Positions 1,495 through 29,386 of a DNA stretch of 32,936 bases are shown in pieces. The position numbers and the translations under genes are program-made. The first letter of the stretch is position 1; each line of letters begins with the position of its first letter. The stretch spans positions 26,766-59,701 of the forward strand of contig JAABQX010000059.1 in the NCBI GenBank assembly GCA_011391215.1, read 5' to 3'. A model generated the notes under the pieces. The model searched no databases. It had not been told where the DNA came from and saw only the letters and a list, made by a program, of their open reading frames with translations. This DNA is from Rhodocyclaceae bacterium (GTDB lineage Bacteria; Pseudomonadota; Gammaproteobacteria; Burkholderiales; Rhodocyclaceae).

Positions 1495-1869
1495 ATGCGA
1501 ACGCAACCGTCTTGGCTCCATGATCTACCGTTAGTCAGGCAGCGCGTCTGGCTTATTCTGCTCGGTGTTGCCGGATGCGTCGTCATGTTGATCTGGATGC
1601 TGACATCGACCACCGTATCAGCAGAGCCGACTTTCGAGGCGGATTTGGAGCACGCACCGACGGACGTTACCGTCAGCGTCCGGACCACTTGCCCTGAGTG
1701 TGGCGTCGTGTCTTCAAGGCGGGAAATAGCCGGCGCCAATTCCGGCATCGAAATCACTGTCCGCATGCACGATGGATCGAAGCGCCAGTTCGCGGAGGCA
1801 AGTTCCTCAATCTGGCGGGTAGGCGAGCGCATGATCATCATCGACAGCACAAAACGGGCGGTTGATTGA
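1495..1869 (+). CDS. Small single-pass membrane protein with CPEC motif
   Basis: Protein of 124 aa, not assigned to a named family. One transmembrane segment lies at about residues 18-37 (rich in L, V, I and W), preceded by a short basic N-terminus, so the C-terminal part probably faces the periplasm. That part holds a CPEC motif at residues 66-69 and a C-terminal stretch (EITVRMHDGS, then WRVGERMIII). This stretch resembles the tail seen after glycine-zipper domains in SlyB-type envelope proteins; the resemblance is from memory. The ORF track starts at 1453, inside the hydrolase gene. I prefer the ATG at 1495 because it follows the hydrolase stop. A diverged copy of the 25-bp dispersed motif encodes the linker just after the membrane segment. 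Confidence 0.6.
   Translation: MRTQPSWLHDLPLVRQRVWLILLGVAGCVVMLIWMLTSTTVSAEPTFEADLEHAPTDVTVSVRTTCPECGVVSSRREIAGANSGIEITVRMHDGSKRQFAEASSSIWRVGERMIIIDSTKRAVD
1612..1636 (+). repeat. Dispersed 25-bp motif, copy A (diverged)
   Basis: A diverged copy matching GCCGT-NN-CGCCAGCGCCGACTTT at 17 of its first 23 bases, closer to copy G than to the consensus because both have AT as the variable pair. It is read as TVSAEPTF in the small membrane protein gene. It would not be noticed alone; it is included because the better copies define the pattern. Confidence 0.4.
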
Positions 1870-1915
1870 TGATTGATATCAAGCCAGACTGCTACTCCGC
1901 TTCATAAGTGCAGGT

Positions 1916-2632
1916 TCAGCGACCGCTCGGGCTGTCGGCGGTTCCCGGCGGGCTCCTGGTAGCAGGCTGCCAGCGTCCTGCGGATTCGCTGCAAAAGCCT
2001 GCCAGGCTTTCCAGCACCTCATGTACCGCGCGATTGGCCGCAATGACGCCGCTACGCGGATCGTCGCCTGCGGCGGCAACGCTTGCGTCGAATTCGCGCT
2101 GTGCCAGCACTTGTCGCGTTGCGTTATCCACCACATAGGCGCGCAAAGTGAAGCGCACCTGGCTCGGCCGGCTAACAAAATCCTGCTGCAAACGAACGAT
2201 CTCGGTGTCGAGCCGCAGGTCGCCGGCCGCAGCGCTGGGTGTGAGTACCACGGCGCGAAACGCCCCGCTGTTTTCGACCGCCGCGACGATGAGTGGCACG
2301 ATCATGCGCGCCGGCGTATCCACCCATTCGCTGTGCGCAAAATACTCGAGCTTGTGGGGCTCGCGCACATAGAGGATGCGTTGGCTGTCGAAGCCTGCAG
2401 CAGCGTGAGGTTGATTGACGATCAAAGTCGGCGCCTGCGAACGGTCGGTGCCGTCCCGCCAGCGCCGACTTTTTACGGCTGCCGTAGTGGCTTCACGGTG
2501 CGTGCTGTCGAGCGAATAAAACGCTGGTAGCGGCGTTGTCGTCGGTTGCAGCGCGCCGCAAGCACCGAGCAGCGACAGAAAAAGTAGGGCGGCACCCAGC
2601 CGGCAGGGGCTGGTAAAAGATAGTTGGGTCAT
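1916..2632 (-). CDS. ABC-type transport auxiliary lipoprotein (PqiC/DUF330-like)
   Basis: Lipoprotein of 238 aa. A hydrophobic signal sequence ends in the lipobox LGAC with Cys25, so it should be lipidated and, as for PqiC, probably placed in the outer membrane. The family pattern is clear: FYSLD after the linker, APTLIV, GFDSQRILYVREPHKLEYFAHSEW, WVDTPARM, and a C-terminal helix rich in Ala. This family accompanies MCE transporters and links the inner-membrane complex to the outer membrane. It is the last gene of the permease-ATPase-MCE-lipoprotein operon. Its ATG overlaps the MCE stop codon (ATGA). Two copies of the dispersed motif, in opposite orientation, encode residues about 54-70 between the lipobox linker and the conserved core. 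Confidence 0.87.
   Translation of the reverse strand: MTQLSFTSPCRLGAALLFLSLLGACGALQPTTTPLPAFYSLDSTHREATTAAVKSRRWRDGTDRSQAPTLIVNQPHAAAGFDSQRILYVREPHKLEYFAHSEWVDTPARMIVPLIVAAVENSGAFRAVVLTPSAAAGDLRLDTEIVRLQQDFVSRPSQVRFTLRAYVVDNATRQVLAQREFDASVAAAGDDPRSGVIAANRAVHEVLESLAGFCSESAGRWQPATRSPPGTADSPSGR
2424..2444 (-). repeat. Dispersed motif, copy B (partial, inverted partner of C)
   Basis: On the minus strand this reads CCGT, seven bases, then CGCCGACTTT: the motif with one base missing and the middle altered. It faces copy C across five bases. The APTL codons it supplies are typical of the PqiC family, so part of the match could be coincidence. Confidence 0.45.
2450..2474 (+). repeat. Dispersed 25-bp motif, copy C (consensus)
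   Basis: Consensus copy with variable pair CC, identical over all 25 bases to copy E 10 kb away. It lies antisense to the host gene, which reads it as KSRRWRDG. With copy B it forms an inverted pair whose outer 11 bases (AAAGTCGGCGC / GCGCCGACTTT) are perfectly complementary. Confidence 0.9.
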
Positions 2633-7326: not shown

Positions 7327-10300
7327 ATGAACCTCGGCACCTATCTCAGCGGATCCATGCGTCGATTGAAGGCGCATTTGCATTTGAGCCGTAGCCACTG
7401 GCCAGGAAGCTCACCCGACGCGGAGCCTCCGCTGCGCGCGGAGCTATTCAGCGCCGATCAGATGGAGCTGCATGGCAAGGTACTCGCCGCTTCGCACCGC
7501 TTGGTTACGGGGCGCGCGCCGGACCAATTGCTGGCGCGACTGGCAGCGAACGAACACGCCTTGGTTGAAGTGTGTCAACTGCTGACGGGGGCGGTGACGG
7601 AGAAGCGCCGGATCTCGCCGGCCGGCGACTGGCTGCTTGACAATTTCTATCTCATTGAAGAGCAGATTCGCACGGCCAAGCGCCACTTGCCCAAAGGCTA
7701 CAGCCGGGAACTCCCGCGTTTGGCGGCCGGCCCCTCGGCCGGGCGTCCGCGCGTCTATGACATTGCTCTTGAAACTGTGGCGCATGGCGATGGTCGCATC
7801 GATACGGCAAGCCTCGCCCGCTTCGTGGCGGCCTACCAGAGCGTCACGGATCTCAAGCTGGGCGAGTTGTGGGCGATCCCGATCATGCTGCGGCTGGCCG
7901 TGATCGAGAATCTGCGGCGGGTCGGCGTGCAGATCGCCGCCGGTTGGGTCGAGCGCAACCTGGCCGACTCCTGGGCAGACCAGATGATGGAGACCGCCGA
8001 AAACGATCCGAAGAACCTGATCCTGGTGATCTCGGACATGGCGCGTTCGAATCCGCCCATGGTCGGCGCATTCGTCGCCGAGCTTGCCCGCCGCTTGCAA
8101 GGGCGTGGCCCGGCCCTCGCTTTGCCATTGACCTGGATCGAGCAACGGCTCGCGGAATCGGGTCTGACGATTGCGCTGCTGGTTCAGGGCGAGAACCAGC
8201 AACAGGCCGCTGACCAGGTTTCCGTCAGCAACAGCATTGGCAGCCTCAGGGTGCTGGGCGCGGTGGACTGGCGCGAATTTGTCGAGACCCTGAGCTCCGT
8301 CGAGCGGACCCTGCTTGAAGATCCGGACGGCGTCTATGGCCGGATGGATTTTGCGAGCCGCGACCGCTACCGCCATGCCACGGAGCGGATTGCGAAGCTG
8401 GGGTGTCTGACAGAGGTCGAGGTGGCGCGCAAGGCGGTCGAGCTGGCCCGTGCGGCAGAGGATGCAACCCGCGCTGGGCATGTTGGCTTCTATCTGATCG
8501 ACAAGGGCTTGCCCGCGCTTGAACGGGCAGCGGCAGTTCGCCTTTCCATCGCCATGGTCTGGCGCAGAAACGCCGGCCGCTTCCCCCTATTTGTCTATCT
8601 GGGCGCCATCGCGCTGCTCACGGCGATTGTCGCCGGCGGCCTGCTGGTGCAGGCGCTGGCTGTGGGAGTGAATGATTGGGCCTTGCTGGCGGTCAGCCTG
8701 GTCGCGCTGCTGGGCGCCAGCCAATTGGCTGTGGCGCTGGTGAATTGGCTGGTCACCCTGCTGGTGACGGCGCAGCCGCTGCCCAGAATGGATTTCTCGA
8801 AAGGTATCCCTGCACCTTCGCGCACGCTGGTAGTGGTCCCGACCATGCTAAGCAGCGTTGCCGGCATAGAGGAACTGGCCGAGGCGCTGGAAGTCAGGTT
8901 TCTGGCGAATCGGGATGAATGCCTGCACTTCGGCTTGCTGACAGACTGGCGTGACGCCCGACAGGAATCGCTTCCCGAGGATGAAGCGCTGCTGCAACTG
9001 ACGCGGACGCGGATCAACGAGCTGAACGAGAAATACCGTGGCAGCAAGCATGGGACATCGGACGACATCTTCTTTCTCTTCCATCGCCCGCGCCGCTGGA
9101 ATCCGCAGGAACGAGTCTGGATGGGCTACGAGCGCAAGCGGGGCAAGCTGGCCGATTTGAACGCGCTGCTGCGCGACGTTCCCAACGGTAGCGCCAGGGA
9201 TGGCTTTTCGCTGATTGTGGGTAACACCGCCGTATTGTCCGGCGTGAAATACGTGATCACCCTGGACACGGATACGCAGTTGCCACGCGATGCGGCGCGG
9301 CAGTTTGTCAGCACCATGGCGCATCCCCTGAATCGGGCGCACTATGATGCGATAAAACAGCGGGTCAGCGCCGGCTACGGCATTTTGCAGCCGCGCGTCG
9401 CGATCAGCCTGCCGGGCGCCAACCGTTCGCGCTATGCCCGCTTGTACGGCGGGGAGCCGGGCATCGACCCTTACACGCGCGCTGTCTCGGATGTGTACCA
9501 GGACGTATTTGGCGAAGGCTCATTCATCGGCAAGGGCATCTACGACGTCGATGCCTTTGAGCACGCGGTGGGCGGACGCTTCCCCGAAAACGCCATCCTC
9601 AGCCACGATCTGCTGGAAGGCTGCTACGCGCGTTCCGGGTTGTTGAGCGATGTGCAGTTGTACGAGGACACCCCCGCCCGTTACAGCGCCGATGTCAGCC
9701 GGCGCCATCGCTGGATGCGCGGCGACTGGCAACTCGCGGGATGGCTCAGGAGGCATGTACCGGGAGCGGGTGCGCAGCGACAAAAGAATCCACTCTCATT
9801 CCTCTCGCAATGGAAGCTGATCGACAATTTGCGCCGTAGCCTCGTTCCGGCGGCGCTGACAGTGTTGCTGCTGCTGGGGTGGACGGTGCTGCCCGCGGCA
9901 GGCTTGTGGACCCTGTCTGTGATTGGCATCCTGCTGCTGCCGGCGCTGTGCGGCGCAACGCTCGACCTGTTGCGCAAGCCGGAAGAATTGCTGTGGCGGC
10001 AGCACCTTGCCGCGATCGGCCACGCGCTGGTCCGGCATTTGCAACAGATGGCGTTCGAACTTGCCTGTCTGCCCTACGAGGCGTACTACAGCCTGGATGC
10101 CATCGCCCGCACCGTTTGGCGGATGCACATCGCGCACAAACGTCTGCTGGAGTGGAATCCATCCAGCGAATCGAACCGTGACAGCACGGGTACGCTCGCC
10201 GCCGAAATCCGGCGGATGTGGATTGGCCCCGTTCTCTCAATGGCCGTGACCGGTTACCTGCTGACATCGACACCGGTGGTGCCAGTATTGCCATTGGTAG

Positions 10301-13300
10301 CGCTGGTAGCGGGACCGCTTCTATTGCTGTGGTTTATCTCGCCAGTGATTGCGTGGTGGGTCAGCCGTCCGCTCACCCACCGCACGGACAGCCTGACGCT
10401 CGAACAGACCTTCTTCCTGCGCGCGTTGGCGCGGCGGACCTGGGCTTTCTTCGACAACTTCGTCGGCGCCGAGGATCATTGGTTGCCACCGGACAACTAT
10501 CAGGAATATCGTGTCGCCGCGATCGCCCATCGCACCTCGCCGACCAACATGGGCATGGCACTGCTGGCGAATCTGGCCGCCTATGACTTTGGTTACCTCC
10601 CGGCCGGCCAACTCATCGAACGCACGGCGCATACGTTCGACACGATGGAAGGGCTAGAGCGGCATCGCGGGCATTTCTATAACTGGTACGACACGCAGAC
10701 GCTGCAACCCCTGCCGCCACGCTACATCTCGACCGTGGACAGCGGCAACCTCGCCGGCCATCTGCTGACCTTGCGCGCTGGCTTGCTGGCGCTGGCCGAT
10801 GACAGGATTTTGCCAGCGCGCTTGTTCGACGGACTGAGTGACACTTTCCGCTTACTGGTGGACGACCTGGGCGGCATGACCAATGGCGCCGCCGGCGCAC
10901 TGGCTGCGCTACGGAGTGAACTGGCTGCAGCCAGCGCTGCCCCGCCCGCTACCCTCACTGCACTGCGCTTGATTCTGGCCCGGCTGGCTACCCTCGCCAC
11001 AGAACTCGTCACCGCGACTGTGGCCAGACGCGATGACCAGCGCGATGAACGGAGCAGCGATGCGACACCCGGCAGCGAAGCGCATGCGTGGGCCCAGGCG
11101 CTGGCCAGGCAAGTGAGTGCGGCATTGGATGAACTGAACTTCCTCGTCACAACGGAATATTTTGTTGACCACGGTAACCATGGCGCCCTCCCGACCCTGC
11201 GCGAATTGCTAACGGCGGGGAGTATTTCTGCCCGGGAGCGCATCGCGACCATCGAACATCTGGCACAGCGTTGCCTTGAGCTGGCGCGCATGGAGTTCGA
11301 CTTCCTGTTCGACAAGACGCGCCATCTGCTGATCATCGGCTACAACGTGGATGAGCGCCGGGCCGACACGAGCTACTACGACCTGCTGGCCTCCGAAGCG
11401 CGCCTGACCAGCTTTGTGGCTATCGCGCAGGGGCAGTTGCCGCAGGAAAGCTGGTTTGCGCTCGGTCGTTTGCTCACCAGTACCAGCGGTGAACCGGTGT
11501 TGCTGTCGTGGAGCGGTTCGATGTTCGAGTACCTGATGCCGCTCTTGGTGATGCCCGGCTACGACAACACGCTGCTCGACCAGACCTGCAAGGCGGCGGT
11601 GGCGCGACAGATCGAGTACGGCCGCCAGCGCGGCGTGCCCTGGGGCATTTCGGAATCCGGCTACAACACGGTCGACCAGCATCTCAATTACCAGTACCGC
11701 GCCTTTGGCGTGCCAGGGCTGGGGTTGAAGCGCGGATTGGCCGATGATCTGGTGATTGCGCCCTATGCCTCGGCGCTGGCGCTGATGGTGGCGCCCGAGG
11801 CCGCCTGCCTGAATCTGCAACGCCTGGCGGCGGAGGGCTTTATGGGTCGCTTCGGTTTCTTCGAGGCCATCGACTACACACCCGCCCGGCAGCGACGCGG
11901 GCAAACGGGCACGGTGGTGCGTTCCTTCATGGCCCACCATCAGGGCATGAGCCTGCTGGCGCTGGCCTACCAGATTCTGGACCGTCCAATGCAGCGGCGC
12001 TTCGAGTCGGATCGATTGTTCCAGGCGGTCATGCTGCTGCTGCAGGAAAGGATTCCCAAGGCCACGGCCTTGTTTTCGCACACGGCGCAGCTGGCCGACA
12101 TGCGCGCGGCGACAGACGTTACGGAAGCGCCGATCCGGCACTTCGACAGCCCCGACACGGCGCAACCCGAGGTGCAGTTGTTGTCGAACGGTCGCTACCA
12201 CGTCATGCTCACCAACGCGGGCGGCGGCTACAGCCGCTGGAAAGATCTCGCCGTCACGCGCTGGCGTGAGGACGGCACCTGTGACAACCGGGGCAGCTTT
12301 TGTTACGTCCGCGAAGTGGGCAGCTTCGAGCCATGGTCGGTCACCCATCAGCCGACGCTCAAACGAGCGGACAGCTATGAAGCGATTTTCTCGGAGGGGC
12401 GCGCCGAATTCCGCCGCCGCGATGGCCATTTCGAGACCTATTCCGAGATCGTCGTCTCTCCCGAGGACGATATCGAGCTGCGCCGCGTCCGTATTACCAA
12501 TCGCTCGCGCCAGCGGCGGCAGATCGAGATCACCAGTTACGCCGAAGTAGTCATCGCGCCGCCCGCTACGGACGCGTTACATCCGGCTTTCAGCAATCTT
12601 TTCGTGCAGACCGAGATCCTGCCCGAACGACACGCGATCCTGTGCACGCGGCGGCCACGCTCGCTGGGGGAGCAGGCGCCCTGGATGCTGCACCTGATGG
12701 TGGTGCATGGCGCGACGAACGGTGAGGTGTCCTGCGAAACGGATCGCCTGCGCTTCATCGGTCGGGGAAGGGATACCGTTGCACCTCTGGCGCTGCACGA
12801 CCATGACACACTTTCCGGCATGTTTTCCACACCACGCCGTCCCGCCAGCGCCGACTTTTTGCGTGGCATGACGATGCACAAGCATACTGCGCACTCATCC
12901 CCACTCTCGAATACTGCCGGCCCGGTACTCGATCCGATCGTCGCCATCCGCACTTCGATCATGCTCGATCCGGAACAGTCGGTCACCGTCGATATCGTGT
13001 CGGGCGTCGCCGAGACGCGCGACTTGGCTGTAAGCCTGGTCGACAAATACCAGGACCGCCATCTGGCCGATCGCGTTTTCGATCTGACGTGGACGCACAG
13101 CCAGGTAGTGCTGCGCCAGATCAATGCTACCGAGGCCGATGCGCAACTTTACGCACGGCTGGCCGGCGCCGTCATCCACGCCAACGCCACCTTGCGCGCC
13201 GATCCGGCCGTGCTTATCAAGAATCTTCGCGGGCAGTCGGGACTGTGGGGTTACGCGATTTCCGGCGACCTGCCGATCGTGCTGCTGCAGATCGGCGATG

Positions 13301-16116
13301 CGGCCAATATCGATCTCGTGCGCCAACTCGTGCAGGCCCATGCCTACTGGCGCCTGAAAGGGCTGGCGGTGGATCTGGTGATCTGGAACGAGGATCACGC
13401 CGGTTACCGGCAGCAATTGCAGGAACAGATCATGGGGCTGATCGCCTCGGGCATCGAGGCCAGCGTGATCGACCGGCCGGGCGGTATCTTCGTGCGGCCC
13501 GCCGAACAGATCTCCGGTGAGGACCGCATCCTGCTTCAGTCGGTCGCCCGCGTGCTCATCACCGACAGCCGGGGAACCCTCACGGAGCAGCTCGATCACG
13601 GCCTGCCACTGGAACCGCGCATGCCGCCGCTCAAGCCTATCCGGGCCTATCGACCCGATGCGCCGGCGGCGATTGCCCCGCCGCGCAACGATCTGATCCT
13701 GTGTAATGGACTGGGCGGCTTCACCCAGGATGGTCGCGAATACATCATGACCCTCGGTCCCGGCCAAACCACTCCGGCGCCCTGGGCCAACGTGTTGGCC
13801 AATCCGCACTTCGGCACGATTGTCTCCGAGAGCGGCGCGGCCTACACCTGGAGCGAGAACGCGCACGAATTCCGCCTCACGCCCTGGCACAACGATCCGG
13901 TCAGCGATGCCAGCGGCGAGGCGCTGTATCTGCGCGACGAAGAGACAGGCCAAGTCTGGTCGCCGACGCCCTTGCCGGTTCGCGACGCGATGCCCTATGT
14001 CGTCCGCCATGGTTTCGGCTACAGCGTTTTCGAAACACGGGTGGGCGGCATTCGCTCGGAACTCTGGGTTTATGTGGCGATGGATGCCGCCATTAAATTC
14101 TCGGTACTGAAACTGCGCAACGAGTCCGGCCGGCCGCGCCGGCTTTCTGCCACCGGCTACGTCGAGTGGGTGCTGGGCGATCTGCGCGAGAAATCGGCCA
14201 TGCATGTGAGTACCGAAATCGCTCCGCGCAGTGGCGCGCTCTACGCGCGCAACCCCTACAACCCGGAATTCGGCGAGCGGGTGGCGTTCTTCGACGTGGA
14301 TGTCCCGAGCCGTAGCCTGAGTGGCGACCGCACGGAATTTATTGGCCGCAACGGCACACTGCAAAATCCTGCCGCCCTGAAACGCACACGCCTGTCCGGC
14401 AAGGTTGGCGCCGGCCTTGATCCCTGCGGCGCGCTGCAGGTCAGCATCGATCTGGCCGACGGACAGGAGCGGGAGATCGTCTTCCGCCTCGGTGTCGGGC
14501 GCAATGCCGCTGATGCCGACACACTGGTAAAACGCTTCCGTGGTGCGCCGGCGGCACGCGGTGCGCTTGAAGCGGTGTGGCAGCATTGGAACCACACCCT
14601 CGGTGCGGTACAGGTCGACACCCCCGATCCGGCGATCAATGTTCTGGCCAACGGCTGGCTGGTGTATCAGACCCTGGCGTGCCGCATCTGGGCGCGCAGC
14701 GGTTATTACCAGTCGGGTGGCGCCTTCGGCTTCCGCGATCAGTTGCAGGACGTCATGGCACTCATACACACCCGCCCGGGACTGGTACGCGAACATCTGC
14801 TGCTGTGTGCAAGCCGCCAGTTCGTCGAAGGCGATGTTCAGCATTGGTGGCATCCGCCCTCGGGCCGGGGCGTGCGCACGCGTTGCTCGGATGACTATCT
14901 CTGGCTGCCGCTGGCGGTGTGCCGCTATGTGACCAGCAGCGGCGATACGGACGTGCTGGATGCGCCCGTGCACTTCCTCGAGGGCCGCCCGGTGAATGCG
15001 GAAGACGACTCCTACTACGACCTGCCCGGTCGTTCCAGCGATGCCGCCAGCCTCTACGAACATTGCGTGCGCGCCATTCGGCACGGCCTGCGCTTTGGCG
15101 CACACGGTCTGCCGCTGATCGGTTCCGGCGACTGGAATGACGGCATGAACCGGGTGGGAATACTGGGCAAGGGCGAGAGCGTCTGGCTGGGCTTCTTCCT
15201 CTGCGACGTGCTCAGACAATTCTCGGCGCTGGCGGGACGGCATGGTGACCCATCCTTCGCCGAACTGTGCGTCGAAGAGGGCGCACGGTTGCGCCAGAAC
15301 ATCGAGCAGCACGGCTGGGATGGCGCGTGGTACCGCCGCGCCTACTTCGACGACGGCACGCCGCTGGGCTCAGCCGAAAACGCCGAATGCCGCATCGATT
15401 CAATCTCGCAGAGCTGGTCCGTGCTCTCTGGTGCGGGCGAAGGTGTTGGCAACCTCGCGCGGGCGCGCCAGGCCATGCAGGCGGTTGACGCGCAACTCGT
15501 GCGGCGCGACGACGGTCTGGTGCAGCTGCTCGATCCACCTTTCGATACGGCGAACCTTGACCCCGGCTACATCCGTGGTTACGTGCCGGGCGTGCGCGAA
15601 AACGGCGGCCAATACACTCACGGTGCGGTCTGGGCAGCGATGGCGTTTGCCCAGTTGGGCGAGAATGAACGCGCCTGGGAACTGCTGAACATGATCAACC
15701 CGGTTAACCATGCCTTGTCGACAGAGGCCATTGCCACTTACAAGGCAGAACCCTACGTCGTCGCCGCCGACGTCTATGCTGCGGCACCCCACATCGGGCG
15801 TGGCGGCTGGAGTTGGTACACCGGATCGGCCGGCTGGATGTACCGGCTGATTGTCGAATCCTTGCTGGGCCTGCGTCTTGAGGGGGACAGACTGCATCTT
15901 GCACCCTGTCTGCCCGCCGATTGGCAGGGGTTCACGATCCACTATCGGTATCGCGAAACCGTTTATCACATTGCTGTTTCGCAAACGCGCGCAGGGATTA
16001 ATGGGGCGAGTGACGTGATGAGTGTGACAGTTGATGGCGTCAGGCAAGCCGACAGAGCCATTCCCCTTGCCGGCGGCCAGCATGAACATTGGGTTGAGGT
16101 GAAGATGGAAGGATGA
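7327..16116 (+). CDS. ndvB: Cyclic beta-1,2-glucan synthase (NdvB/ChvB/Cgs type)
   Basis: Giant membrane enzyme of 2929 aa, near the usual 2800-2900 for the family. It polymerises UDP-glucose into beta-1,2-glucan on a protein intermediate, adjusts the length and cyclises it, giving periplasmic osmoregulated glucans. An N-terminal region of about 420 aa is followed by membrane helices (about 420-480) and the GT84 glycosyltransferase (about 500-830). That domain has DTDTQLP at 647-653, SHDLLEG at 759-765 and RWMRGDWQ near 795-802. Further helices lie at about 837-888 and 968-1010. A glycoamylase-like domain starts near 1048 ([10 protein letters not shown]). Two glycosyltransferase-36/GH94-type regions start near 1614 and near 2127 ([13 protein letters not shown]). 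The GH94 catalytic motif [10 protein letters not shown] is at about 2599-2608, so all activities look intact. No NdvA-type ABC exporter is visible nearby. Motif copy E encodes residues 1837-1845. Confidence 0.95.
12836..12860 (+). repeat. Dispersed 25-bp motif, copy E (consensus)
   Basis: Identical to copy C over all 25 bases. It is read in the sense direction as RPASADFL inside ndvB, between an Arg/Pro-rich stretch and RGMTMHKH, probably a surface loop of the first GH94-like region. Confidence 0.9.
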
Positions 16117-16555: not shown

Positions 16556-17956
16556 TTAGAGGATCTTGCCGGGGTTCATCAGCTGGTGCGGATCAAACGC
16601 CAGCTTGATGGAGCGCATCATGTCCATTTCAATGGAGCTTTTGTAGCGCAGAATCTCCTCGCGCTTCAGTTGTCCGAGTCCGTGCTCGGCGGAAATCGAG
16701 CCGCCGAGTTTGTTGGCCAGGTCATGTACGATACGATTGACGGCCTCCGTTTGTGCGATGAAGCCGGTATTGTCCTGCGCTTCAGGCTTCGACTGGTTGT
16801 AATGCAGATTGCCATCGCCGAGATGGCCGAAGCAGACGATGCGCACGCCGGGGAAGGCGCTTGCCAGAGCAGCATCAGCGCGGGTGATGAATTCGGCCAG
16901 GCGCGAGACGGGAACGGAAATGTCATGCTTGATCGAGAGCCCCTCGATTTTCTGAGCTTCGGAAATGTTTTCGCGCAACTGCCAGAGCGCTTGCGCCTGG
17001 GTTTCGCTCTTGGCGATCACGGCGTCGGTCGCCTCGCCGGCCTCGATGGCTTCGCTGAGTGTGTCCTCAAGCGGCGCATCGAGGTCGGATTCCATTGTGT
17101 CGGATAATTCGATCAGCACTTGCCAGTCCGAACGTGTGGCCAGCGGATCGCGACTGCCGGGGATGTGTCTGAGTACAAGGTCGAGCGCCGGCCGACCGAC
17201 CAGTTCGAATGCCGTCACGCGACCGCCGATTTTTTCCCGCAGACGCGTTAGCAAGGCGACCGCCTCTGCGGGGGTAGCGACGGTCGCCCAGGCGGTGGCG
17301 ACCTGGCGTGGCCGTGAGTACAGTTTGAGTACCGCCGCCGTGATGAGCCCGAGCGTGCCCTCGGCGCCGATGAACAGGTGTTTCAGGTCGTAGCCGGTGT
17401 TGTCCTTGCGCAAGCCGCGCAAGCCGTTCCACAGACGGCCGTCGGGCAGTACAACCTCCAGGCCGAGGCAGAGTTCGCGCGCGTTGCCATAGCGCAGCAC
17501 TTGCACTCCACCGGCATTGGTGGCGAGATTGCCGCCGATGGTGGCGGTACCTTCGGCGGCAAGCGAAAGCGGAAAGAGGCGGCCGGCGCTGGCGGCGGCT
17601 TCTTGCACCGCAGCCAGCGTGCAACCGGCTTCGACGGTCAGGGTGTTGTTCTCGGTGTCGATGGCGCGAACGCGGTTGAGGCGGGTGAGGCTTACCAGCA
17701 CTTCGCCGCCGACGGGGGTAGCGCCACCACATAAGCCCGTGTTGCCGCCCTGCGGCACAACCGCAATGCCGGCGGCGGCACAGGTCTGCACGACAGCCGC
17801 AACTTCTTCGGCAGTGCCCGGCCTGACTACGCAAAGTGGCTGCCCGGTGTAACGGCCGCGCCAGTCGGTGCAATACGGGGCAATGTCGAAGGGGACGGTA
17901 AGAATGTGCGTCGCGCCGATAATTTCGCGCAAGCGTTCCAAAAAGTCGGCGCTCAT
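16556..17956 (-). CDS. FAD-linked D-2-hydroxyacid dehydrogenase (GlcD/D-2-HGDH-like)
   Basis: Flavoenzyme of 466 aa from the vanillyl-alcohol-oxidase type FAD family. The FAD-binding half has [14 protein letters not shown] and [11 protein letters not shown] (about residues 68-78), then [10 protein letters not shown] and [12 protein letters not shown]. The C-terminal half has [13 protein letters not shown] and [12 protein letters not shown], the metal- and substrate-binding motifs of D-lactate, glycolate and D-2-hydroxyglutarate dehydrogenases. The exact D-2-hydroxyacid is not determined by sequence. There is no signal peptide, so it is probably cytoplasmic or membrane-associated and donates electrons to a quinone or ETF. 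The ATG overlaps the rimO stop codon (ATGA). This start lies inside copy F of the dispersed motif, which encodes MSADFL. Confidence 0.9.
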
Positions 17957-20767: not shown

Positions 20768-22516
20768 TCAGGCCTTTTCTTTTACATAGCGACCGGGTGC
20801 AGGTTCTCCCGGAGGATATTTCTTGTTGCCCATGCGGCCGCGGGCGTTGACTTCCCCGTCGGCAAACTGTTTGAGCCATTCGGCCCAGCGTTGCCACCAG
20901 CTGCCCTGGACTTCGGTAGCAGAAGCCAGCCATTCATCGGCGTCCTGGGTTGCGCTGTCGTTGATCCAGTGGCTGCGCTTGTTCTTCGCGGCGGGGTTGA
21001 TGACGCCGGCGATATGTCCGGATGCGCCAAGGACGAACGTGGTCTTGCCACCCAGCAGTTGGCGGCCGAGATAGGAAGACTGCCAGGGCACGATGTGATC
21101 TTCGCGCGTGGCCAGCATGAAGGTCGGCATGTCGACGCGACCAAGGTCGGCCTTGACGCCGCACATGGCCAGCTTGCCGGGTTCGCGCAGGCTGTTTTCG
21201 AGATACAAGTTGCGCAGGTACCAGGCGGTGAACGGTCCCGGCAGATTCGTCGAATCGCTGTTCCAGTGCAGCAGGTCGAAAGGCGCCGGCTTGTTGCCCT
21301 TGAGGTAGTTGCCGACGACGTATTGCCAGATCAGGTCATTGGCGCGCAGTGCGGAAAATGTGGTGGAAAGCTCCTTGGCGGTGAGCAGGCCGCCCTTGCC
21401 GATCGTGGCTTCGCGCTGGGCCACCGATTGCTCATCGACGAAGCAACCGATCTCGCCGGTGTCGGAAAAATCGAGCAGGGTGGTGAGCAAGGTCAGTGAG
21501 GTCACCGGATCTTCGCCGCGCGCCTTGGCCACGGCCAGTGCGGAAGAGAGGATGGTGCCGCCGACGCAGAAACCCAGTGTGTTGATCTGCTTGGTCTTGC
21601 AGATTTCCTGCACGATCTTGATCGCGGTGAGTGGGCCCTGCTCGAGATAGTCGTCCCAGGTCAGGTGCCCCTGCGCTTCCTTCGCGTTGCGCCAGGACAT
21701 CAGGAACATCGTCTGACCCTGTGACACGGCGTAGCGGATGAACGAGTTCTCCGGTTGCAGGTCGAGGATGTAGAACTTGTTGATGCAGGGCGGCACGACG
21801 AGCAGGGGCCGTTTGGCAACGGTATCGGTCAGCGGGGCGTATTGCAGCAACTGGAACAGCTCATTCTCGAAGACCACCGCGCCCGGCGTCGTTGCTAGGT
21901 TGCGCCCGACCTCGAAGGCGCTGTCATCGGTCATCGAGATGCGGCCCTTTTCGAGATCGCCCAGCAGATTCTGCAGGCCGAGCTTGATGCTCTCGCCATT
22001 GGTTTCCAGCGCCTTCTGGACGAATTCCGGGTTGGTGGCCGCGAAGTTCGTGGGGGCTAGCGCATCGGCGATCTGGCGCGCCATGAACTGCATGCGGCTT
22101 TTGGTGAGCCGGTCGGCGGCCGGTGCGGCATCGGCCATCTTCTTCATGTAGCTGGAATTCAGCAGATACGCCTGCCGCACATAATCATAAATCGGGCTTT
22201 CCGCCCAGGCCGGATGCGCAAAGCGCCGGTCGCCCGGTTCCGGTTGCACCAGCGGGGCTGATGCTTCACCTTTTTTGCGCTGGAGCATCGTTTGCCACAA
22301 GGCGGCATGCTGCTGTTGCCACTCCTTTTGCAAAGCGGCCAGCGCAGCATTTTCCTGTCCGGAATTCGTTCCGGCGGGTGGCGTCATGGCGGCCAGTTGC
22401 GCCTGCCAATCCTGCTGCTGGGCGCCACCGGTCAAATGCGCCATGCCTTGGGCGAATGACTGGCCGGCTTGCAAGAACGCCTGCATCGCGGCATTGGGAT
22501 CATGGGGAGTCGTCAT
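20768..22516 (-). CDS. phaC: Class I poly(3-hydroxyalkanoate) synthase PhaC
   Basis: Enzyme of 582 aa, the usual class I length, that polymerises (R)-3-hydroxyacyl-CoA at the granule surface. The N-terminal ~180 residues are the PhaC N-terminal domain. The alpha/beta-hydrolase core has the lipase-like box GFCVGG with nucleophile Cys317. It also has REDHIVPWQSSY and the catalytic His in GASGHIAGVINP. A Trp-rich end segment (SWWQRWAEWLKQF) is typical of the class. The ATG at 22516 has an AGGAAG ribosome-binding site. The gene heads the phaC-phaB-phaR series and has its own near-consensus promoter just upstream. Confidence 0.95.
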   Translation of the reverse strand: MTTPHDPNAAMQAFLQAGQSFAQGMAHLTGGAQQQDWQAQLAAMTPPAGTNSGQENAALAALQKEWQQQHAALWQTMLQRKKGEASAPLVQPEPGDRRFAHPAWAESPIYDYVRQAYLLNSSYMKKMADAAPAADRLTKSRMQFMARQIADALAPTNFAATNPEFVQKALETNGESIKLGLQNLLGDLEKGRISMTDDSAFEVGRNLATTPGAVVFENELFQLLQYAPLTDTVAKRPLLVVPPCINKFYILDLQPENSFIRYAVSQGQTMFLMSWRNAKEAQGHLTWDDYLEQGPLTAIKIVQEICKTKQINTLGFCVGGTILSSALAVAKARGEDPVTSLTLLTTLLDFSDTGEIGCFVDEQSVAQREATIGKGGLLTAKELSTTFSALRANDLIWQYVVGNYLKGNKPAPFDLLHWNSDSTNLPGPFTAWYLRNLYLENSLREPGKLAMCGVKADLGRVDMPTFMLATREDHIVPWQSSYLGRQLLGGKTTFVLGASGHIAGVINPAAKNKRSHWINDSATQDADEWLASATEVQGSWWQRWAEWLKQFADGEVNARGRMGNKKYPPGEPAPGRYVKEKA

Positions 22517-22580: not shown

Positions 22581-23306
22581 TCAACATCGCCAGATCAGGC
22601 TGGCCATGCGCCCGGTCACGCCGTCCCGACGATAGGAGTAGAAGCGTTCCGCGTCGCGTACCGTGCAAAAGTCGGCGCTGGCGATACGGCACACGCCGAG
22701 TGCTGCAAGCCGTTGCCGCGCCAGCTGATAGATGTCGCAGAGCCATCGGCCATTGCTGCGCTGTGCAAACGCCGACGCGGCCAGCGCGTCGTGGGTAATG
22801 AAGGCGTCCCGCACCTCACCGCCCACCTCGAAATTTTCCGGACCGATGGCCGGCCCCAGCCAGGCCATCAATTGCTCACCGGGAGCATTCATGCTGTGCA
22901 CGGTGGTTTCGATCACGCCGGCTGCCAGTCCGCGCCAGCCGGCATGCACGGCCGCTACCACACTGCCGGCTGTGTCGCACAACAAGATGGGGACACAGTC
23001 GGCCGTCAACACCGCACAAACCACGTTAGCGGATCGAGTGAAAGCGGCGTCAGCTTCGTTGGTGCTTGCACGCTGTGCGTCAATACACGTTACTCCATGC
23101 ACCTGCTTGAGCCAAAGCGGTTCGCCTGGCAGGTGCTTCCGCAAGCAGCGGCGGTTTTTCGCCACTGCACTCGGGTCGTCGCCGACGTGGTCGCCGAGAT
23201 TAAAACTTTCCCATGGTGCCAGGCTCACGCCGCCGCTACGGGTTGTCACTAGCGCATGCACATTGGCGGGTGCCGGCCAGTCAGGAGTGAGAAAACTATT
23301 CTTCAC
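22581..23306 (-). CDS. pgeF: Laccase-domain purine nucleoside/peptidoglycan-editing protein (PgeF/YfiH)
   Basis: Protein of 241 aa of the multicopper-polyphenol-oxidase-domain family, now linked to purine nucleoside phosphorylase/adenosine deaminase activity and, in E. coli, to peptidoglycan editing. Visible motifs are TTRSGGVSLAPWESFNLGDHVGD, KQVHG, LTADCVPILL, AVHAGWRGL and FEVGGEVRDAF with the metal-binding His and Cys residues. The end is SYRRDGVTGRMASLIW. The ORF track starts far inside rluD; I prefer the GTG at 23306, which gives VKNSFLTPDWPAP and overlaps the rluD end by 11 bases. This is the normal rluD-pgeF coupling. Motif copy G encodes RIASADF near the C-terminus. Confidence 0.88.
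   Translation of the reverse strand: MKNSFLTPDWPAPANVHALVTTRSGGVSLAPWESFNLGDHVGDDPSAVAKNRRCLRKHLPGEPLWLKQVHGVTCIDAQRASTNEADAAFTRSANVVCAVLTADCVPILLCDTAGSVVAAVHAGWRGLAAGVIETTVHSMNAPGEQLMAWLGPAIGPENFEVGGEVRDAFITHDALAASAFAQRSNGRWLCDIYQLARQRLAALGVCRIASADFCTVRDAERFYSYRRDGVTGRMASLIWRC
22666..22690 (-). repeat. Dispersed 25-bp motif, copy G
   Basis: 22 of 25 bases match copy C; the variable pair is AT and the last base is G. It is read in the sense direction as RIASADF in pgeF, in the segment between two conserved blocks near the C-terminus. Confidence 0.88.
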
Positions 23307-24249
23307 GCAGACTTTCCAGCAAGGTGTCGAAATCTTCCGGCAGCGGCGATTTCCAGCCCATGTGCTCGCCCGAGGCGGGATGTTCCAGTGCCAGTTTCCA
23401 CGCATGCAGCGCCTGGCGTGGAAAGGCATCAAGCGCCGCATCGCCGCACTTCGTCTTGCCATATACCGGGTCGCCAACCAGGGGATGGCGGATGCTGGCC
23501 ATATGTACGCGGATCTGATGGGTGCGGCCGGTTTCGAGCCGGCATTCGACCAGCGTGCAGCGCTCGAAATACTCTCTTACGGCATAGTGGGTGCGCGCCT
23601 CCTTGCCGCCGTATTTCAGCACCGCCATCTTGATGCGCTGCACGGGGTGGCGCCCCAGCGGCGCATCCACGGTGCCGTCGTGCTCGACCTGGCCATGCAC
23701 CAGTGCGAGGTAGTTGCGTTTCACGGTGTGCGCCTGCAGTTGGCGCACCAGGTCAGTCTGCGCCGCCAGGGTCTTGGCGACAACCAGCAGCCCGGAAGTT
23801 TCCTTGTCCAGCCGGTGCACAATGCCGGCGCGCGGTATGCCGGCGAGCGCTGGCGCGTGGTGGAGCAGGGCGTTCATCAAGGTGCCGCCGGCGTTGCCGT
23901 TGCCCGGATGCACCACCAGCCCGGCCGGCTTGTCGATGACGATCAGCGTTGCGTCTTCGAAGACGATGGGCAAGTCGATGTCCTCGGCGACATCGACAAA
24001 AGTCGGCGCTGGCGGGACGGCGATGGAAAGCGTTTCACCACCCCAGACCTTGTGCTTGGCATCGGCCGTGGCGCCGTCGAGAAGGATCAGGCCGTCCTTC
24101 AGCCAGGCTTGCAGCCGGCTGCGTGAATGCTCGGGCAGCAGCTTCGCCAGCGCGGCATCCAGCCGCAGGCCGGCACATTCGACCGGAATGGTGATTTCTG
24201 CTGGGCTATAATCGCCGGCACTTATTTGGCTCACTTGGAATTCGCTCAT
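23296..24249 (-). CDS. rluD: 23S rRNA pseudouridine synthase RluD
   Basis: Protein of 317 aa that makes pseudouridines 1911, 1915 and 1917 in helix 69 of 23S rRNA. An N-terminal S4 RNA-binding domain (about residues 20-75) leads to the RluA-type catalytic domain. That domain has IDKPAGLVVHPG, the catalytic motif HRLDKETSG with Asp148, and RLETGRTHQIRVHM. Two ATG codons in tandem (ending at 24252 and 24249) could start it; I list the second (MSEFQ). Either way the start region collides with the ATG of divergent bamD. The divergent bamD, the downstream pgeF and this gene form the common proteobacterial arrangement. Copy H of the motif encodes AVPPAPTF (about residues 77-84) in the linker between the two domains. 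Confidence 0.94.
   Translation of the reverse strand: MSEFQVSQISAGDYSPAEITIPVECAGLRLDAALAKLLPEHSRSRLQAWLKDGLILLDGATADAKHKVWGGETLSIAVPPAPTFVDVAEDIDLPIVFEDATLIVIDKPAGLVVHPGNGNAGGTLMNALLHHAPALAGIPRAGIVHRLDKETSGLLVVAKTLAAQTDLVRQLQAHTVKRNYLALVHGQVEHDGTVDAPLGRHPVQRIKMAVLKYGGKEARTHYAVREYFERCTLVECRLETGRTHQIRVHMASIRHPLVGDPVYGKTKCGDAALDAFPRQALHAWKLALEHPASGEHMGWKSPLPEDFDTLLESLREE
23997..24021 (-). repeat. Dispersed 25-bp motif, copy H
   Basis: 24 of 25 bases match copy C; only the last base differs (G). It is read in the sense direction as AVPPAPTF in the rluD interdomain linker, one frame different from copies E, F, G and I. Confidence 0.9.
24207..24212 (+). promoter_or_regulatory. Candidate -10 box of bamD
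   Basis: A perfect TATAAT lies 38 bases before the bamD ATG, inside the 5' coding end of rluD. No good -35 box is found at 16-18 bases; TTCGAC is 23 bases upstream, which is too far. It is plausible because bamD has no intergenic space for a promoter. Confidence 0.4.
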
Positions 24250-24250
24250 C

Positions 24251-25045
24251 ATGCGTAGTTTAGCCTCCCTGCTTGCCATTCTCGTCCTGACACTGTTTGC
24301 CGGTTGCGGTCTGCTGCCCGATCAGATCGACGAAACCGCCGGCTGGTCGGCCAACAAGCTGTATGCCGAAGCCAAAACCGCCATGGGCGAGGGCGCCTAC
24401 GACAAGGCGGTCAAGTATTTCGAAAAGCTCGAAGCGCGTTATCCCTACGGCCGCTATGCCCAGCAGTCGCAGCTTGAAGTGGCTTACGCCTACTACAAGC
24501 AGGAAGAAAAAGCCTCGGCTATCGCCGCCTGCGACCGTTTCATCCGCCTGCACCCCAACCATCCCAACGTCGATTACGCCTATTACCTCAAGGGGCTGGT
24601 GAATTTCAACGAGGATCTCGGTCTGATGGGCCACGTCAGCATGCAGGACCTGACCGAGCGCGACCCGAAGGCCGCAGCCGAGTCGTTTGCGGCGTTCAAG
24701 ACTCTGGTCAACAAGTTCCCGGATAGCAAATACGCTCAGGATGCCACGCAACGCATGGCTTACCTCGTGAATGCGCTGGCTTCGCACGAGGTGCATGTTG
24801 CACAGTACTACATGCGCCGTGGCGCCTATGTCGCCGCCGCCAACCGTGCTCAGGCAGCGCTAAAAACCTACCCGGACGCCCCCGCCAACGAAGAAGCGCT
24901 GTTCGTCCTGATCAAGGCCTATGATGCGCTGAACATGGCTGATTTGCGTGACGATGCCGAGCGCGTGATGCGGAAGAATTTCCCCAACAGCGAGTATTAC
25001 AAGCGTGGTCTGAACAAGGACGTGCCGTGGTGGAAACTCTGGTAA
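24251..25045 (+). CDS. bamD: Outer membrane assembly lipoprotein BamD
   Basis: Lipoprotein of 264 aa, the essential partner of BamA in the beta-barrel assembly machine. The signal sequence MRSLASLLAILVLTLFAGC ends in a lipobox with Cys19. Five TPR-like repeats follow: LYAEAKTAMGEGAYDKAVKY, YGRYAQQSQLEVAYAYYKQ, HPNHPNVDYAYYLKGLVNF and others, with the family's DLTERDPKAAAESFAAFKTLV. Length and order match YfiO/ComL. The start is fixed by the signal peptide. Its ATG overlaps the divergent rluD start region, leaving no intergenic spacer. It ends seven bases before the convergent rlmB stop. Confidence 0.95.
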   Translation: MRSLASLLAILVLTLFAGCGLLPDQIDETAGWSANKLYAEAKTAMGEGAYDKAVKYFEKLEARYPYGRYAQQSQLEVAYAYYKQEEKASAIAACDRFIRLHPNHPNVDYAYYLKGLVNFNEDLGLMGHVSMQDLTERDPKAAAESFAAFKTLVNKFPDSKYAQDATQRMAYLVNALASHEVHVAQYYMRRGAYVAAANRAQAALKTYPDAPANEEALFVLIKAYDALNMADLRDDAERVMRKNFPNSEYYKRGLNKDVPWWKLW

Positions 25046-25795: not shown

Positions 25796-26704
25796 TCAGC
25801 CATGCTTGATGACACGATACTGCGCCGTCATGCGGTGGGTCTCGCCCGGCGCCAGGGTAATGACATCGTCGGCCGCATTGGCGGTTTCGACGCAGACCAT
25901 TTTGTTCTCTCCTTGCCGGCCGAAATCGCCCATCTTTGTGGCCTTTTCAGCGCCCGGATTCCACACCACCGTGGAACGGCTGCCCGTGCTGGTGATGAGG
26001 ATCGTGCGTTTCAATACCGGGTCGATGATCCCGGTACAGCCAGTGGTACCCAGATAAACCCGGTCGGTTTCACCGGCAAAGCTCACTGCGCCCTTCTGTT
26101 TCTTGAGCTTGCCGCCGGCGACCTTGTCGATGTAGGCGCAGCCTTCCAATCCGGCGATGCTGGTTTGGCGAATATCGCCGATTTCAAAATAGGTATGCAG
26201 CGCCTGGCCCAACTGGAAAGGCGCCTTGCCGTCGTTTCGGGTGGACAGGCCGATGACGAGTTCCTGGCCGATGGTGATGCTGTTGCGCGCGGAGGTCGCG
26301 TGCGGCCACTGGGCGCGCGCTGTGTCGTTCATCGCTGGCTCAAACTCAAGGCGCACGCGCCCGTCGGGTAGTTTGCGGGCATCGAGCAGCGTCCAGGGAA
26401 TCGTCCGCGCGAAGCCGTGACCGGGATAGGCTGCTTCGGTCGCATGTGCGCCGAACCAGGGCCAGCACAGCGGCACACCGCCACGGATCGACTTGCCCGG
26501 CGCAAATTTCGCGGCCTTCGACAACCAGATCACCGGTTTCTGGCCTTTCGGTTGCCAGGTCATGACATGGGCGCCCTGCAAGGCCACGGTCGCCGTCGAA
26601 AAAGGCGTCGTGATCTTGAGGGTGATGAAGTCAGGTGCAACCTCGGTGAAAGATAAAAAGTCGGCGCTGGCGTAACGGCTCTGCAGGTCGGCAAGTTGTG
26701 TCAT
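25796..26704 (-). CDS. D-hexose-6-phosphate mutarotase (YeaD-like)
   Basis: Protein of 302 aa of the aldose 1-epimerase superfamily, YeaD branch, interconverting anomers of glucose-6-phosphate or related hexose phosphates. Family motifs are [53 protein letters not shown] with a catalytic-type His, and the C-terminal VCVETANA with the acidic residue. The ATG follows an AAGGAG ribosome-binding site. It is cytoplasmic. It sits between the HEAT gene and rlmB in the rnr group, where its metabolic role seems unrelated to RNA. Motif copy I encodes SRYASADFL at residues 9-17. Confidence 0.9.
26655..26679 (-). repeat. Dispersed 25-bp motif, copy I
   Basis: 23 of 25 bases match copy C; the variable pair is TA. 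It is read in the sense direction as RYASADFL near the N-terminus of the mutarotase, in the same frame as copies E, F and G. Confidence 0.9.
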
Positions 26705-26735: not shown

Positions 26736-27176
26736 TTATGGTGTTTTGAATTCTGCCAGGCTTTCGCTGGCGATTTCCCTGACTTCGGCGTCCGGATCGT
26801 CCAGCCGTGCCTCCAGAAAGCGCATCGCCTCGGGTGCAGCCGAGAGGCCGAGAAAATGGCAGGCATCGGCACGCACTCGTGCATCGCCGTGCCCCGTCAG
26901 CATGCCGAGTGCCGGCACCAGCGTCTTGAGTGCGGCGCTACCTGCATATTGTTCGAAGACCGCGCTGGCGCCGAAACGCACATTCATGTCCGCTTCCGGA
27001 TTCGCGACAATGGGCAGGAGGTCGGCAAGCGTTGCCGGCTTCCGCGCCACAACTTCGAGCACGCGCTTCAGCTGCCCTTCGAACAGCCAGATTTGAAATT
27101 GCTCGGCGCGGTCGCGCATGCCCAGTCGCAAAGCCTCGCGCGTGGTGTGCGCAGCGAGCGGATAACCGAAACTCAT
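26736..27176 (-). CDS. HEAT-repeat domain protein
   Basis: Protein of 146 aa made of alpha-helical HEAT-like repeats. Recognisable units include NVRFGASAVFEQYAGSAAL, DARVRADACHFLGLSAAPE and DAEVREIASESLAEFK, each with the D-x-x-V-R-x-x-A pattern. Such proteins are protein-interaction scaffolds; related phycocyanobilin-lyase-like HEAT proteins occur widely without pigment. No enzyme residues are visible. The start ATG overlaps the rnr stop (ATGA), so the two are translationally coupled, which hints at an accessory role near RNase R, though only by context. The stop is 31 bases before the mutarotase start. Confidence 0.8.
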   Translation of the reverse strand: MSFGYPLAAHTTREALRLGMRDRAEQFQIWLFEGQLKRVLEVVARKPATLADLLPIVANPEADMNVRFGASAVFEQYAGSAALKTLVPALGMLTGHGDARVRADACHFLGLSAAPEAMRFLEARLDDPDAEVREIASESLAEFKTP

Positions 27177-29386
27177 TTGTCTTCTGCCAGCCGGAAGTCA
27201 ATCTTGTTCTGATCCAGATCAACGCGTACCAACTGCACGCGCACGCGGTCGGACAGACGGTAGCGTGCGCCGGTGCGTTCGCCGACCATGGCGTGTGCTT
27301 TTTCGTCGAAGTGGAAGTAGTCGCGGCCGAGGTCGGAAACGTGTACCAGGCCCTCGACGAATACCGTATCGAGCGCGACGAAGATACCGAAGGGCACCAC
27401 CGACGAGATGCTGCCGGTGAAGATTTCGCCAACGCGATCCTGCATGTACCAGCACTTGAGCCAGGCATCGACGTCGCGCGTGGCATCGTCGGCGCGGCGT
27501 TCGGTGGCCGAGCAGGCCAGGCCGATCTGTTCCCAGTCGCCGCCCGGATCGTAGTGCCGTCCCGCCAGCGCCGACTTTATGGCGCGGTGGATCAGCAGGT
27601 CGGGGTAGCGACGGATCGGCGAGGTGAAGTGCGTGTAGCTCTCGTAGGCCAGGCCGAAATGGCCGACGTTGTCGGGGCTGTAGATCGCCTGGCGCAGCGA
27701 GCGCAGCATCACGGTTTGCAGGAGTTGCTTGTCGGGCCGGTTGGCGATCTTGTCGATCAACTGGGCGTAATCCTTCGCCTGCGGATCATCGCCGCCGGTC
27801 AACTGCAGTCCGAAAGTACCAAGGAAATCGCGCAGCTTGGTCAGCCGCTCGGGTGTCGGCCCTTCATGCACGCGATAGAGCGCGAGATGTTCGCGTTCCT
27901 TGAGAAAGTCAGAGGCGCAGACGTTGGCCGCCAGCATGCACTCTTCGATGACGCGGTGCGCGTCGTTGCGTTCATAAGGCACAATGTTGGCGATCTTGCC
28001 GTGGTCATCGAACACCATTTGCGTCTCGACGGTCTCGAAGTCGATGGCGCCGCGCTTCTCGCGCGCCTTGGCGAGGGTGCGATAGAGGGCGTCCAGATTT
28101 TCGAGGAAGGGCAGCAGCTTGCCGACCTTCTCCAGCGCCGCCCCATCCTTGTCGTAAAGCGCTGCCGCGACTTCGGTATAGGTCAGTCGCGCATGCGACC
28201 ACATCACCGCCGGATAGAAACGATATTGCTTGATCGCACCGGTGGCGGAAATCGCCATGTCGCAGACCATGCAGAGGCGTTCGACTTGCGGGTTGAGCGA
28301 ACACAGCCCGTTCGACAGTTTTTCCGGCAGCATCGGGATGACGCGGCGCGGGAAATAAACGGAGTTGCCCCGCTCGCGGGCATCCTTGTCGAGCGGTCCG
28401 CTATCGGCGACGTAGTGCGATACATCGGCAATCGCCACGATGAGGCGATAACCCTTGCCCTGGCGCACGCAATAGACGGCGTCGTCGAAGTCCTTCGCCG
28501 TCTCGCCGTCGATGGTGACGAGCGGCAGTTGCGTAACATCCTCGCGGCCCTTCCAGTCCATCTTGCGCACGGCATCCGGCAGCTTCCTGGTTTCGGCCAG
28601 CGCATCTTTCGAAAACTCGAAGGGCAACTCGTGCTTGCGCAGGGCGATCTCGATTTCCATGCCGGGGTCGGCGTAGTTGCCGAGAATCTCGATGACGCGG
28701 CCGATCGGTTGCGATTGCTTCGACGGTTGCTCGACGATCTCGATCATCACCACTTGCCCGGCCTTGGGGCGCAATGCTTTCCGATCACCTTTTTCCGGCG
28801 GCGCGACGAGAATGTCCTGGCTGATGCGTTTGTTCTCGGCGACAACGAAGGAAACGCCATGCTCCTGGAACACCCGACCGACGATCTGCCGGTTGGCCCG
28901 TTCGGTGACTTCGACGATCTTGCCTTCCGGCCGTCCTTTGCGATCCAGCCCGGCCACGCGCGCGATGGCATGGTCACCGTGCAGCACCTTGTCCATTTCC
29001 TTTTCGGCGAGGAACAAGTCGGGGCCGCCATCCTCGCGCACGAGGAAACCGAAGCCGTCGGGGTGCCCCTGCACACGGCCCTTCAGCAGGTCGGCCTTGT
29101 CGGGAATCAGCCAGTCGTTGCGACGGTTTTGTAGCAGTTGCGCATCGCGCGCCATCGCCCCAAGCCGACGCCGGAACGGCTCCTGCTCGAAATCGGCGAT
29201 GTCGAGAAGATGGCAAATACGCTCGAAGCCAACGGGAACCCCCAAGTCGGCGAGCGTTTGCAGAATGTATTCGCGGCTTGGTAACGGGTGCTCATATTTT
29301 TTGACTTCGCGCTCGAACTCGGGGTCGGCAGTGCGAATTTTCGAGAGCTTGGTTGTCTTGGTTTTGTGGTTTGCTTTGTTTGACAT
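27173..29386 (-). CDS. rnr: Ribonuclease R
   Basis: Processive 3'-5' exoribonuclease of 737 aa that degrades structured RNA and takes part in RNA quality control. N-terminal helix-turn-helix and cold-shock domains (REYILQTLADLGVP; GHPDGFGFLVREDGGPDLFL) are followed by the RNB catalytic domain. That domain has TIDGETAKDFDDAVYC near residues 285-302, with the metal-binding aspartates, and RRYPDLLIHRAI. A C-terminal S1 domain (VGEIFTGSISSVVPFGIFVALD) ends the protein. It lacks the long basic tail of the E. coli enzyme (about 813 aa). The track start at 29512 reads through the opposite tRNA-Leu; I chose the ATG at 29386 (MSNKAN). Motif copy J lies in a variable stretch at about residues 603-610. 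Confidence 0.95.
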   Translation of the reverse strand: MSNKANHKTKTTKLSKIRTADPEFEREVKKYEHPLPSREYILQTLADLGVPVGFERICHLLDIADFEQEPFRRRLGAMARDAQLLQNRRNDWLIPDKADLLKGRVQGHPDGFGFLVREDGGPDLFLAEKEMDKVLHGDHAIARVAGLDRKGRPEGKIVEVTERANRQIVGRVFQEHGVSFVVAENKRISQDILVAPPEKGDRKALRPKAGQVVMIEIVEQPSKQSQPIGRVIEILGNYADPGMEIEIALRKHELPFEFSKDALAETRKLPDAVRKMDWKGREDVTQLPLVTIDGETAKDFDDAVYCVRQGKGYRLIVAIADVSHYVADSGPLDKDARERGNSVYFPRRVIPMLPEKLSNGLCSLNPQVERLCMVCDMAISATGAIKQYRFYPAVMWSHARLTYTEVAAALYDKDGAALEKVGKLLPFLENLDALYRTLAKAREKRGAIDFETVETQMVFDDHGKIANIVPYERNDAHRVIEECMLAANVCASDFLKEREHLALYRVHEGPTPERLTKLRDFLGTFGLQLTGGDDPQAKDYAQLIDKIANRPDKQLLQTVMLRSLRQAIYSPDNVGHFGLAYESYTHFTSPIRRYPDLLIHRAIKSALAGRHYDPGGDWEQIGLACSATERRADDATRDVDAWLKCWYMQDRVGEIFTGSISSVVPFGIFVALDTVFVEGLVHVSDLGRDYFHFDEKAHAMVGERTGARYRLSDRVRVQLVRVDLDQNKIDFRLAEDK
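27556..27580 (+). repeat. Dispersed 25-bp motif, copy J
   Basis: 24 of 25 bases match copy C; one T became A in the T-run. It lies antisense to rnr, which reads it as IKSALAGR just after the conserved IHRA motif. This is a different frame from copy C, the other clearly antisense copy. Confidence 0.9.

Follow-up and report, generated by a model that had tools for sequence, protein, structure and literature searches.

A stretch of 32,936 nucleotides from a Rhodocyclaceae bacterium (assembly GCA_011391215.1, contig JAABQX010000059.1, positions 26,766 to 59,701; the whole stretch is referred to as the window) carries a word of 24-25 bases that recurs on both strands, and the question it raises is what such a word is for. 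A sequence-only reading of the window had noticed it as a dispersed motif, had reckoned with hundreds of copies per genome if the local density were typical, and had proposed three candidates: a DNA-uptake word, a site for a chromosome-organising protein, and a very small mobile repeat. We consider the motif to be probably an uptake label of the kind known as DNA uptake sequence (DUS) in Neisseriaceae and uptake signal sequence (USS) in Pasteurellaceae, and it would be a third, longer and independent label of this type. This reading is based on the abundance of the motif, its restriction to one clade, its dialects, its even spacing, its avoidance of mobile islands and its maintenance in place.

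Abundance, spread and dialects of the motif

The dispersed motif is real, since the window contained 8 matches to the pattern GCCGTNNCGCCAGCGCCGACTTTTT with up to 3 mismatches compared to 0.00 expected, with no match at all in 100 dinucleotide-preserving shuffles. A weight matrix trained on the window's own genome found 11 places above 8 bits (10 good copies with 27-44 bits and one eroded copy with 13 bits), and the reversed window gave none. Copies C, E, F, G, H, I and J of the sequence-only reading were recovered where it had placed them, with C and E identical over 25 bases, and D proved to be a good copy. Of the two copies it had called diverged, A stands as an eroded copy at best, whereas B (2424-2444) fell below the 8-bit cut-off and is unsupported. 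Two good copies had been overlooked, one in a cyclic-glucan-synthase-like gene and one in an FAD-linked oxidase gene. The places found are the following:

1612..1636, plus strand: copy A, weak, an eroded copy at best, ACCGTATCAGCAGAGCCGACTTTCG, 13.1 bits
2450..2474, plus strand: copy C, perfect, within an ABC_trans_aux lipoprotein gene (1916-2632, minus), 43.4 bits
5616..5640, plus strand: copy D, intergenic under the gene model used, 29.3 bits
12836..12860, plus strand: copy E, perfect, within the gene of a 2929-aa cyclic-glucan-synthase-like protein (7327-16116, plus), 43.6 bits
15217..15241, minus strand: overlooked copy within the cyclic-glucan-synthase-like gene, 3' end altered (GCCGTCCCGCCAGCGCCGAGAATT), 27.8 bits
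17211..17235, plus strand: overlooked copy within the FAD-linked oxidase gene (16556-17956, minus), 27.2 bits
17940..17964, minus strand: copy F, across a gene junction: FAD-linked oxidase (start codon) and radical-SAM/TRAM, MiaB-type (end), 29.0 bits
22666..22690, minus strand: copy G, intergenic, upstream of a PhaC-type polymerase gene (20768-22516, minus), 39.1 bits
23997..24021, minus strand: copy H, within a pseudouridine synthase gene (23296-24279, minus), 43.6 bits
26655..26679, minus strand: copy I, close to the 5' end of an aldose-1-epimerase-like gene (25796-26704, minus), 33.5 bits
27556..27580, plus strand: copy J, within the RNase R gene (27173-29512, minus), 39.4 bits

The window's genome (G000; an assembly of 2.33 Mb in 102 contigs, 76% complete) contained 558 copies with up to 3 mismatches, distributed over the strands as 292/266, compared to 2 for the reversed pattern. 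The predicted hundreds per genome were thus borne out, and the motif does not occur at chance level outside the window. Its consensus in this genome, [C/T]GCCGTNNCGCCAGCGCCGACTTTT, holds about 37 bits of information limited to 24-25 bases, with no signal in the flanks; by our own arithmetic, about 13 bits would be enough to mark out some 600 sites within 2.7 Mb. The flanks of the copies are unrelated, which refutes an origin of all copies from a single local duplication. Sequence was read directly for about 30% of G000 and for 58% of G150, a genome of the same genus with a closed chromosome of 2.74 Mb.

The motif marks one clade of Rhodocyclaceae, the freshwater and sediment relatives of Sulfuritalea and Sulfurisoma. 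At up to 2 mismatches in 151 genomes of the family, every sampled member of six genera had 242-726 copies (242 in G248), and one genome from each of two further genera had 34 and 62, respectively. Nearly all other sampled genera of the family had 0-9 copies, with 16 in the fragmented genome G350, and the motif was near absent from some 60 other genera. The remainder of the order had 0-5 copies, sporadically, and a 16-base core searched in a sample of the class occurred 193 times in the window's genome and 0-2 times in the others. Exact 25-mers in named public genomes were, among the matches listed, mostly from Rhodocyclaceae (Sulfuritalea, Sulfurisoma, Rugosibacter and further relatives). In a tree of RNase R, the motif-bearing genomes grouped as a single clade with support of 100/99, and this clade also takes in the genus of G320 and G376, where the motif is mostly lost, and the genus of G341, which has another dialect.

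The dialects follow phylogeny. The form in G000 is [C/T]GCCGTCCCGCCAGCGCCGACTTTT, and that in G150 is GTGCCGTCCCGCCAGCGCCGACTTT; GT stands upstream of 221 of its 304 sites, whereas conservation after TTT is only weak. The GT pattern with up to 1 mismatch had 266 copies in G150 versus 13-208 in the other copy-rich genomes, and its matches outside G150 were mostly GC variants where listed. The dialect of G341 has the core CCAGCGTCGACTTT, with 244 sites at up to 3 mismatches.

A few perfect copies were also seen in six genomes outside the motif-bearing genera (G083, G011, G035, G350, G317 and G201), often several within 10 kb of one contig. They derive either from transfer out of the motif clade or from assembly contamination.

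Distribution along the chromosome and upkeep of sites

The arrangement of the sites was analysed in 1.6 Mb sampled across the G150 chromosome, which contained 304 sites and 0 in the reversed control. No gradient between origin and terminus, no macrodomain and no replichore strand bias was observed in this sample (76 plus and 94 minus sites on the right, 67 and 67 on the left). The spacing was more even than random, with a variance/mean ratio of 0.42 that none of 20,000 simulations matched; this statistic omits six empty 20-kb windows, an omission decided after the data had been seen. Four of these six, at 1.80-1.94 Mb, hold serine recombinase, phage-tail, D5-primase and MmeI-like restriction genes, and this mobile-island region of the one genome in which islands were checked had zero sites in the 80 kb sampled. 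The fifth is a region of RTX/type I secretion genes with IS21. The sixth holds rpoC, fusA, tuf and secY, for which protein constraint is the likelier cause. Intergenic sites made up 31% compared to 16% expected, an about twofold excess, and about 63% lay within genes, where four of the six reading frames, which give mild peptides, were favoured and the two arginine-rich frames were hardly used. These intergenic and frame fractions are approximate, as the gene models came from a simple codon-usage finder.

Comparison of G000 with G150, in alignments of about 75% identity, indicated that sites are held in place. The site was shared in 67 of 93 comparisons, 58 of the 78 aligned genic comparisons were shared in place, and 62-85% of sites lay at orthologous positions. 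Identity was 0.88-0.91 in the motif and 0.63-0.65 in its flanks, and among random 23-mers drawn from these alignments just 14-15% had up to 2 differences. The 26 sites absent in the partner comprised 6 with no net gap, 10 with a net gap below 18 nt, 4 with a motif-sized gap, and 6 with another gap of at least 18 nt. At the position of copy I, G150 has non-motif sequence without a gap.

The RNase R site (copy J) shows this most clearly. The exact motif, with the two N positions free, was kept in most species of the clade amid variable flanks, G341 showed its own dialect at the same position, and eroded versions were found in G320, G376, G150 and G020. Most motif-free relatives outside the clade had a different, ungapped sequence there. 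Judged from this site and the alignment patterns, copies mostly arise by in-place exchange of existing sequence and are kept thereafter. Neisserial DUS are likewise strongly conserved in permissive places and appear partly through recombination (PMC2397512).

Known uptake words, candidate readers and rival explanations

A recent paper (PMC12616744) gives two families, Neisseriaceae and Pasteurellaceae, as the only ones known to tell homologous DNA apart by such words. Among the papers searched, none contained the letters of the motif, and none linked Rhodocyclaceae with both natural competence and type IV pili. Like neisserial DUS, whose receptor is ComP and whose copies number hundreds to thousands, the motif has hundreds of copies on both strands and clade-wise dialects, is rich in the core genome, is absent from recent imports and is conserved in permissive places (PMC2397512, PMC3630211, PMC12616744). 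With the USS of Pasteurellaceae, it shares genome-wide occurrence, conservation between orthologues, reading-frame preferences and dialect types (PMC12616744). It is by traits of this kind that DUS and USS are identified in genomes. However, the motif has 24-25 contiguous bases compared to about 10-13 in DUS, a lower density, and no neisserial TCTGAA part. The USS is an unrelated word with a 9-base core and two weaker AT-rich tracts downstream, and even though the extended USS reaches about 32 bases (PMC12616744), the motif differs in being strongly conserved over all 24-25. Its consensus contains neither AAGTGCGGT nor ACAAGCGGT, the DUS and USS words as printed in PMC12616744, nor the neisserial GCCGTCTGAA. 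The motif thus resembles DUS and USS but, judged by its letters, is in neither known word family.

If the motif is an uptake label, a DNA receptor on the type IV pilus of the competence machinery would recognise DNA carrying the word, so that DNA of the same clade would be preferentially imported and then recombined into the chromosome. Molecular drive plus selection would restore copies, pass them from strain to strain and hold them at their positions, and newly arrived foreign islands would still be without them. If so, an environmental family would be the third with such a word, here a longer and unrelated one, and sequence-biased DNA exchange would have evolved repeatedly, also outside pathogens. 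Such a family would allow the origin of these words, by drive or by selection, to be tested anew, and would offer a natural series of gain, dialect switch and loss for finding the receptor. The motif would also serve as a simple tool to spot foreign islands and misbinned contigs in genomes of the clade.

The sequence-only reading had suggested looking for a ComP-like minor pilin and competence genes, and the outcome was mixed. Full-length ComEC was present in 26 of the 26 genomes tested, DprA in G150 and G000, type IV pilus-type ATPases in G150, and prepilins in the genomes examined. A minor pilin of PF16732 (ComP_DUS), usually beside a GspH/FimT-like pilin, was found in most motif-bearing genomes. 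The ComP_DUS pilin does not go with the motif alone, since it occurs in motif-free genomes as well, and no receptor specific to the motif emerged. GspH/FimT was rejected as a motif-specific receptor; it had no match in the motif-bearing G248, G429 and G341 and is present in motif-free genomes.

Several results weigh against an uptake label. The pair of ComP_DUS and GspH pilins is also found in motif-free genomes. Of 15 motif-bearing genomes, just 2 (G440 and G357) gave a hidden Markov model match to a small ComEA-type open reading frame with a helix-hairpin-helix; most of the other ComEA-type matches belong to open frames about 800 aa long that are probably Tex. Simple pattern searches of the sampled stretches detected neither PilT nor PilQ, and the single motif does not form close inverted pairs in G150, as DUS and USS often do. 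Four of the 26 absent sites had the motif-sized gap expected of an insertion. Furthermore, at least 120 stretches of viral-classed contigs in IMG/VR (loci L308-L427) carry exact copies, although at a lower extra density than host contigs (38 per 721 kb versus 74 per 569 kb); some of these contigs may be misclassified host DNA, and others may be phages of motif-clade hosts. One of these loci, L328, has five exact copies, four of them at a spacing of exactly 316 bp.

In Helicobacter, ComH replaces ComEA. The scarcity of ComEA here means either that another periplasmic protein substitutes for it or that the uptake reading is wrong. It is possible, if rather doubtful, that the word is an independently evolved third kinship label of 24-25 bases whose reader is a divergent uptake system without canonical ComEA or a wholly different self-recognition machinery. 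A label of self and non-self read by something other than a pilus, such as a defence, restriction or DNA repair system, would fit the absence from mobile islands, the clade-specific dialects and the scarcity of ComEA. However, one copy per about 4-9 kb is a low density for tagging all self DNA, the analysis turned up no candidate for its reader, and exact copies occur in viral-classed contigs, some of which are perhaps host DNA; we regard such a label as very improbable.

The remaining two candidates of the sequence-only reading fared worse than the uptake word, which is favoured by occurrence on both strands, even spacing, absence from islands, clade-wide dialects and conservation in place. 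As a recurrent short chromosomal word, the motif is comparable to matS, the FtsK-orienting polar sequences (KOPS), parS and Chi. A cytoplasmic protein might bind it in nucleoid organisation, segregation or recombination, with even spacing selected for chromosome upkeep; the hundreds of sites, their spacing and maintenance in place, and the scarcity of ComEA would agree with this. Unlike those sites, however, the motif shows neither replication strand polarity nor a macrodomain at origin or terminus. It is also far longer and more information-rich, with 37 bits being far beyond what a protein needs for about 600 sites, and its dialects differ between species of one genus, which is generally unusual for such sites. 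A chromosome-associated protein site is unlikely. A very small mobile repeat inserting copies of itself, like repetitive extragenic palindromic (REP) elements, their hairpin-forming doublets (REPIN), miniature inverted-repeat transposable elements or Correia-type repeats, is largely refuted, and we give it scarcely any credence. Such repeats are likewise short and multicopy, a 54-bp hairpin unit in G150 and G020 is derived from the motif (described below), and the motif-sized gaps would fit insertion. The single motif, however, is non-palindromic and mostly genic, and it replaces rather than inserts, as in the ungapped exchange in RNase R; the partner genome has most of the aligned genic sites at the corresponding place, and the copies have no conserved flanks. 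A pattern search of the sampled G150 stretches gave no Y1-transposase-like open reading frame. A role of the single motif as a terminator or hairpin was also rejected, given its weak fold and the lack of close inverted pairs in G150.

The 54-bp unit and gene features

The 54-bp unit consists of the motif, a loop, an inverted partial motif, a spacer and a partial motif, and it occurs alone or, often, in tandem. It is predicted to form a strong hairpin (-41.8 kcal/mol). It was counted 32 times in the 1.6 Mb sampled from G150 and not once in the G000 stretches sampled. Loci with the unit include L078, L086, L251, L254, L258, L281, L288 and others in G150, and L225/L488 in G020. Units in tandem have private variants in common. 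The unit is possibly a young hairpin element that targets motif sites.

Within the window, copy F includes the ATG of the FAD-linked oxidase gene downstream, and its consensus is broken exactly at this ATG. The cyclic-glucan-synthase-like protein, whose gene holds two copies of the motif, has GH94 supersandwich, GH94 catalytic and glucoamylase-type domains. In the region 29427-29512, the longest RNase R open reading frame begins within a tRNA-Leu(CAG) gene on the opposite strand (29427-29511), and the true start codon of RNase R probably lies about 30 codons further in.
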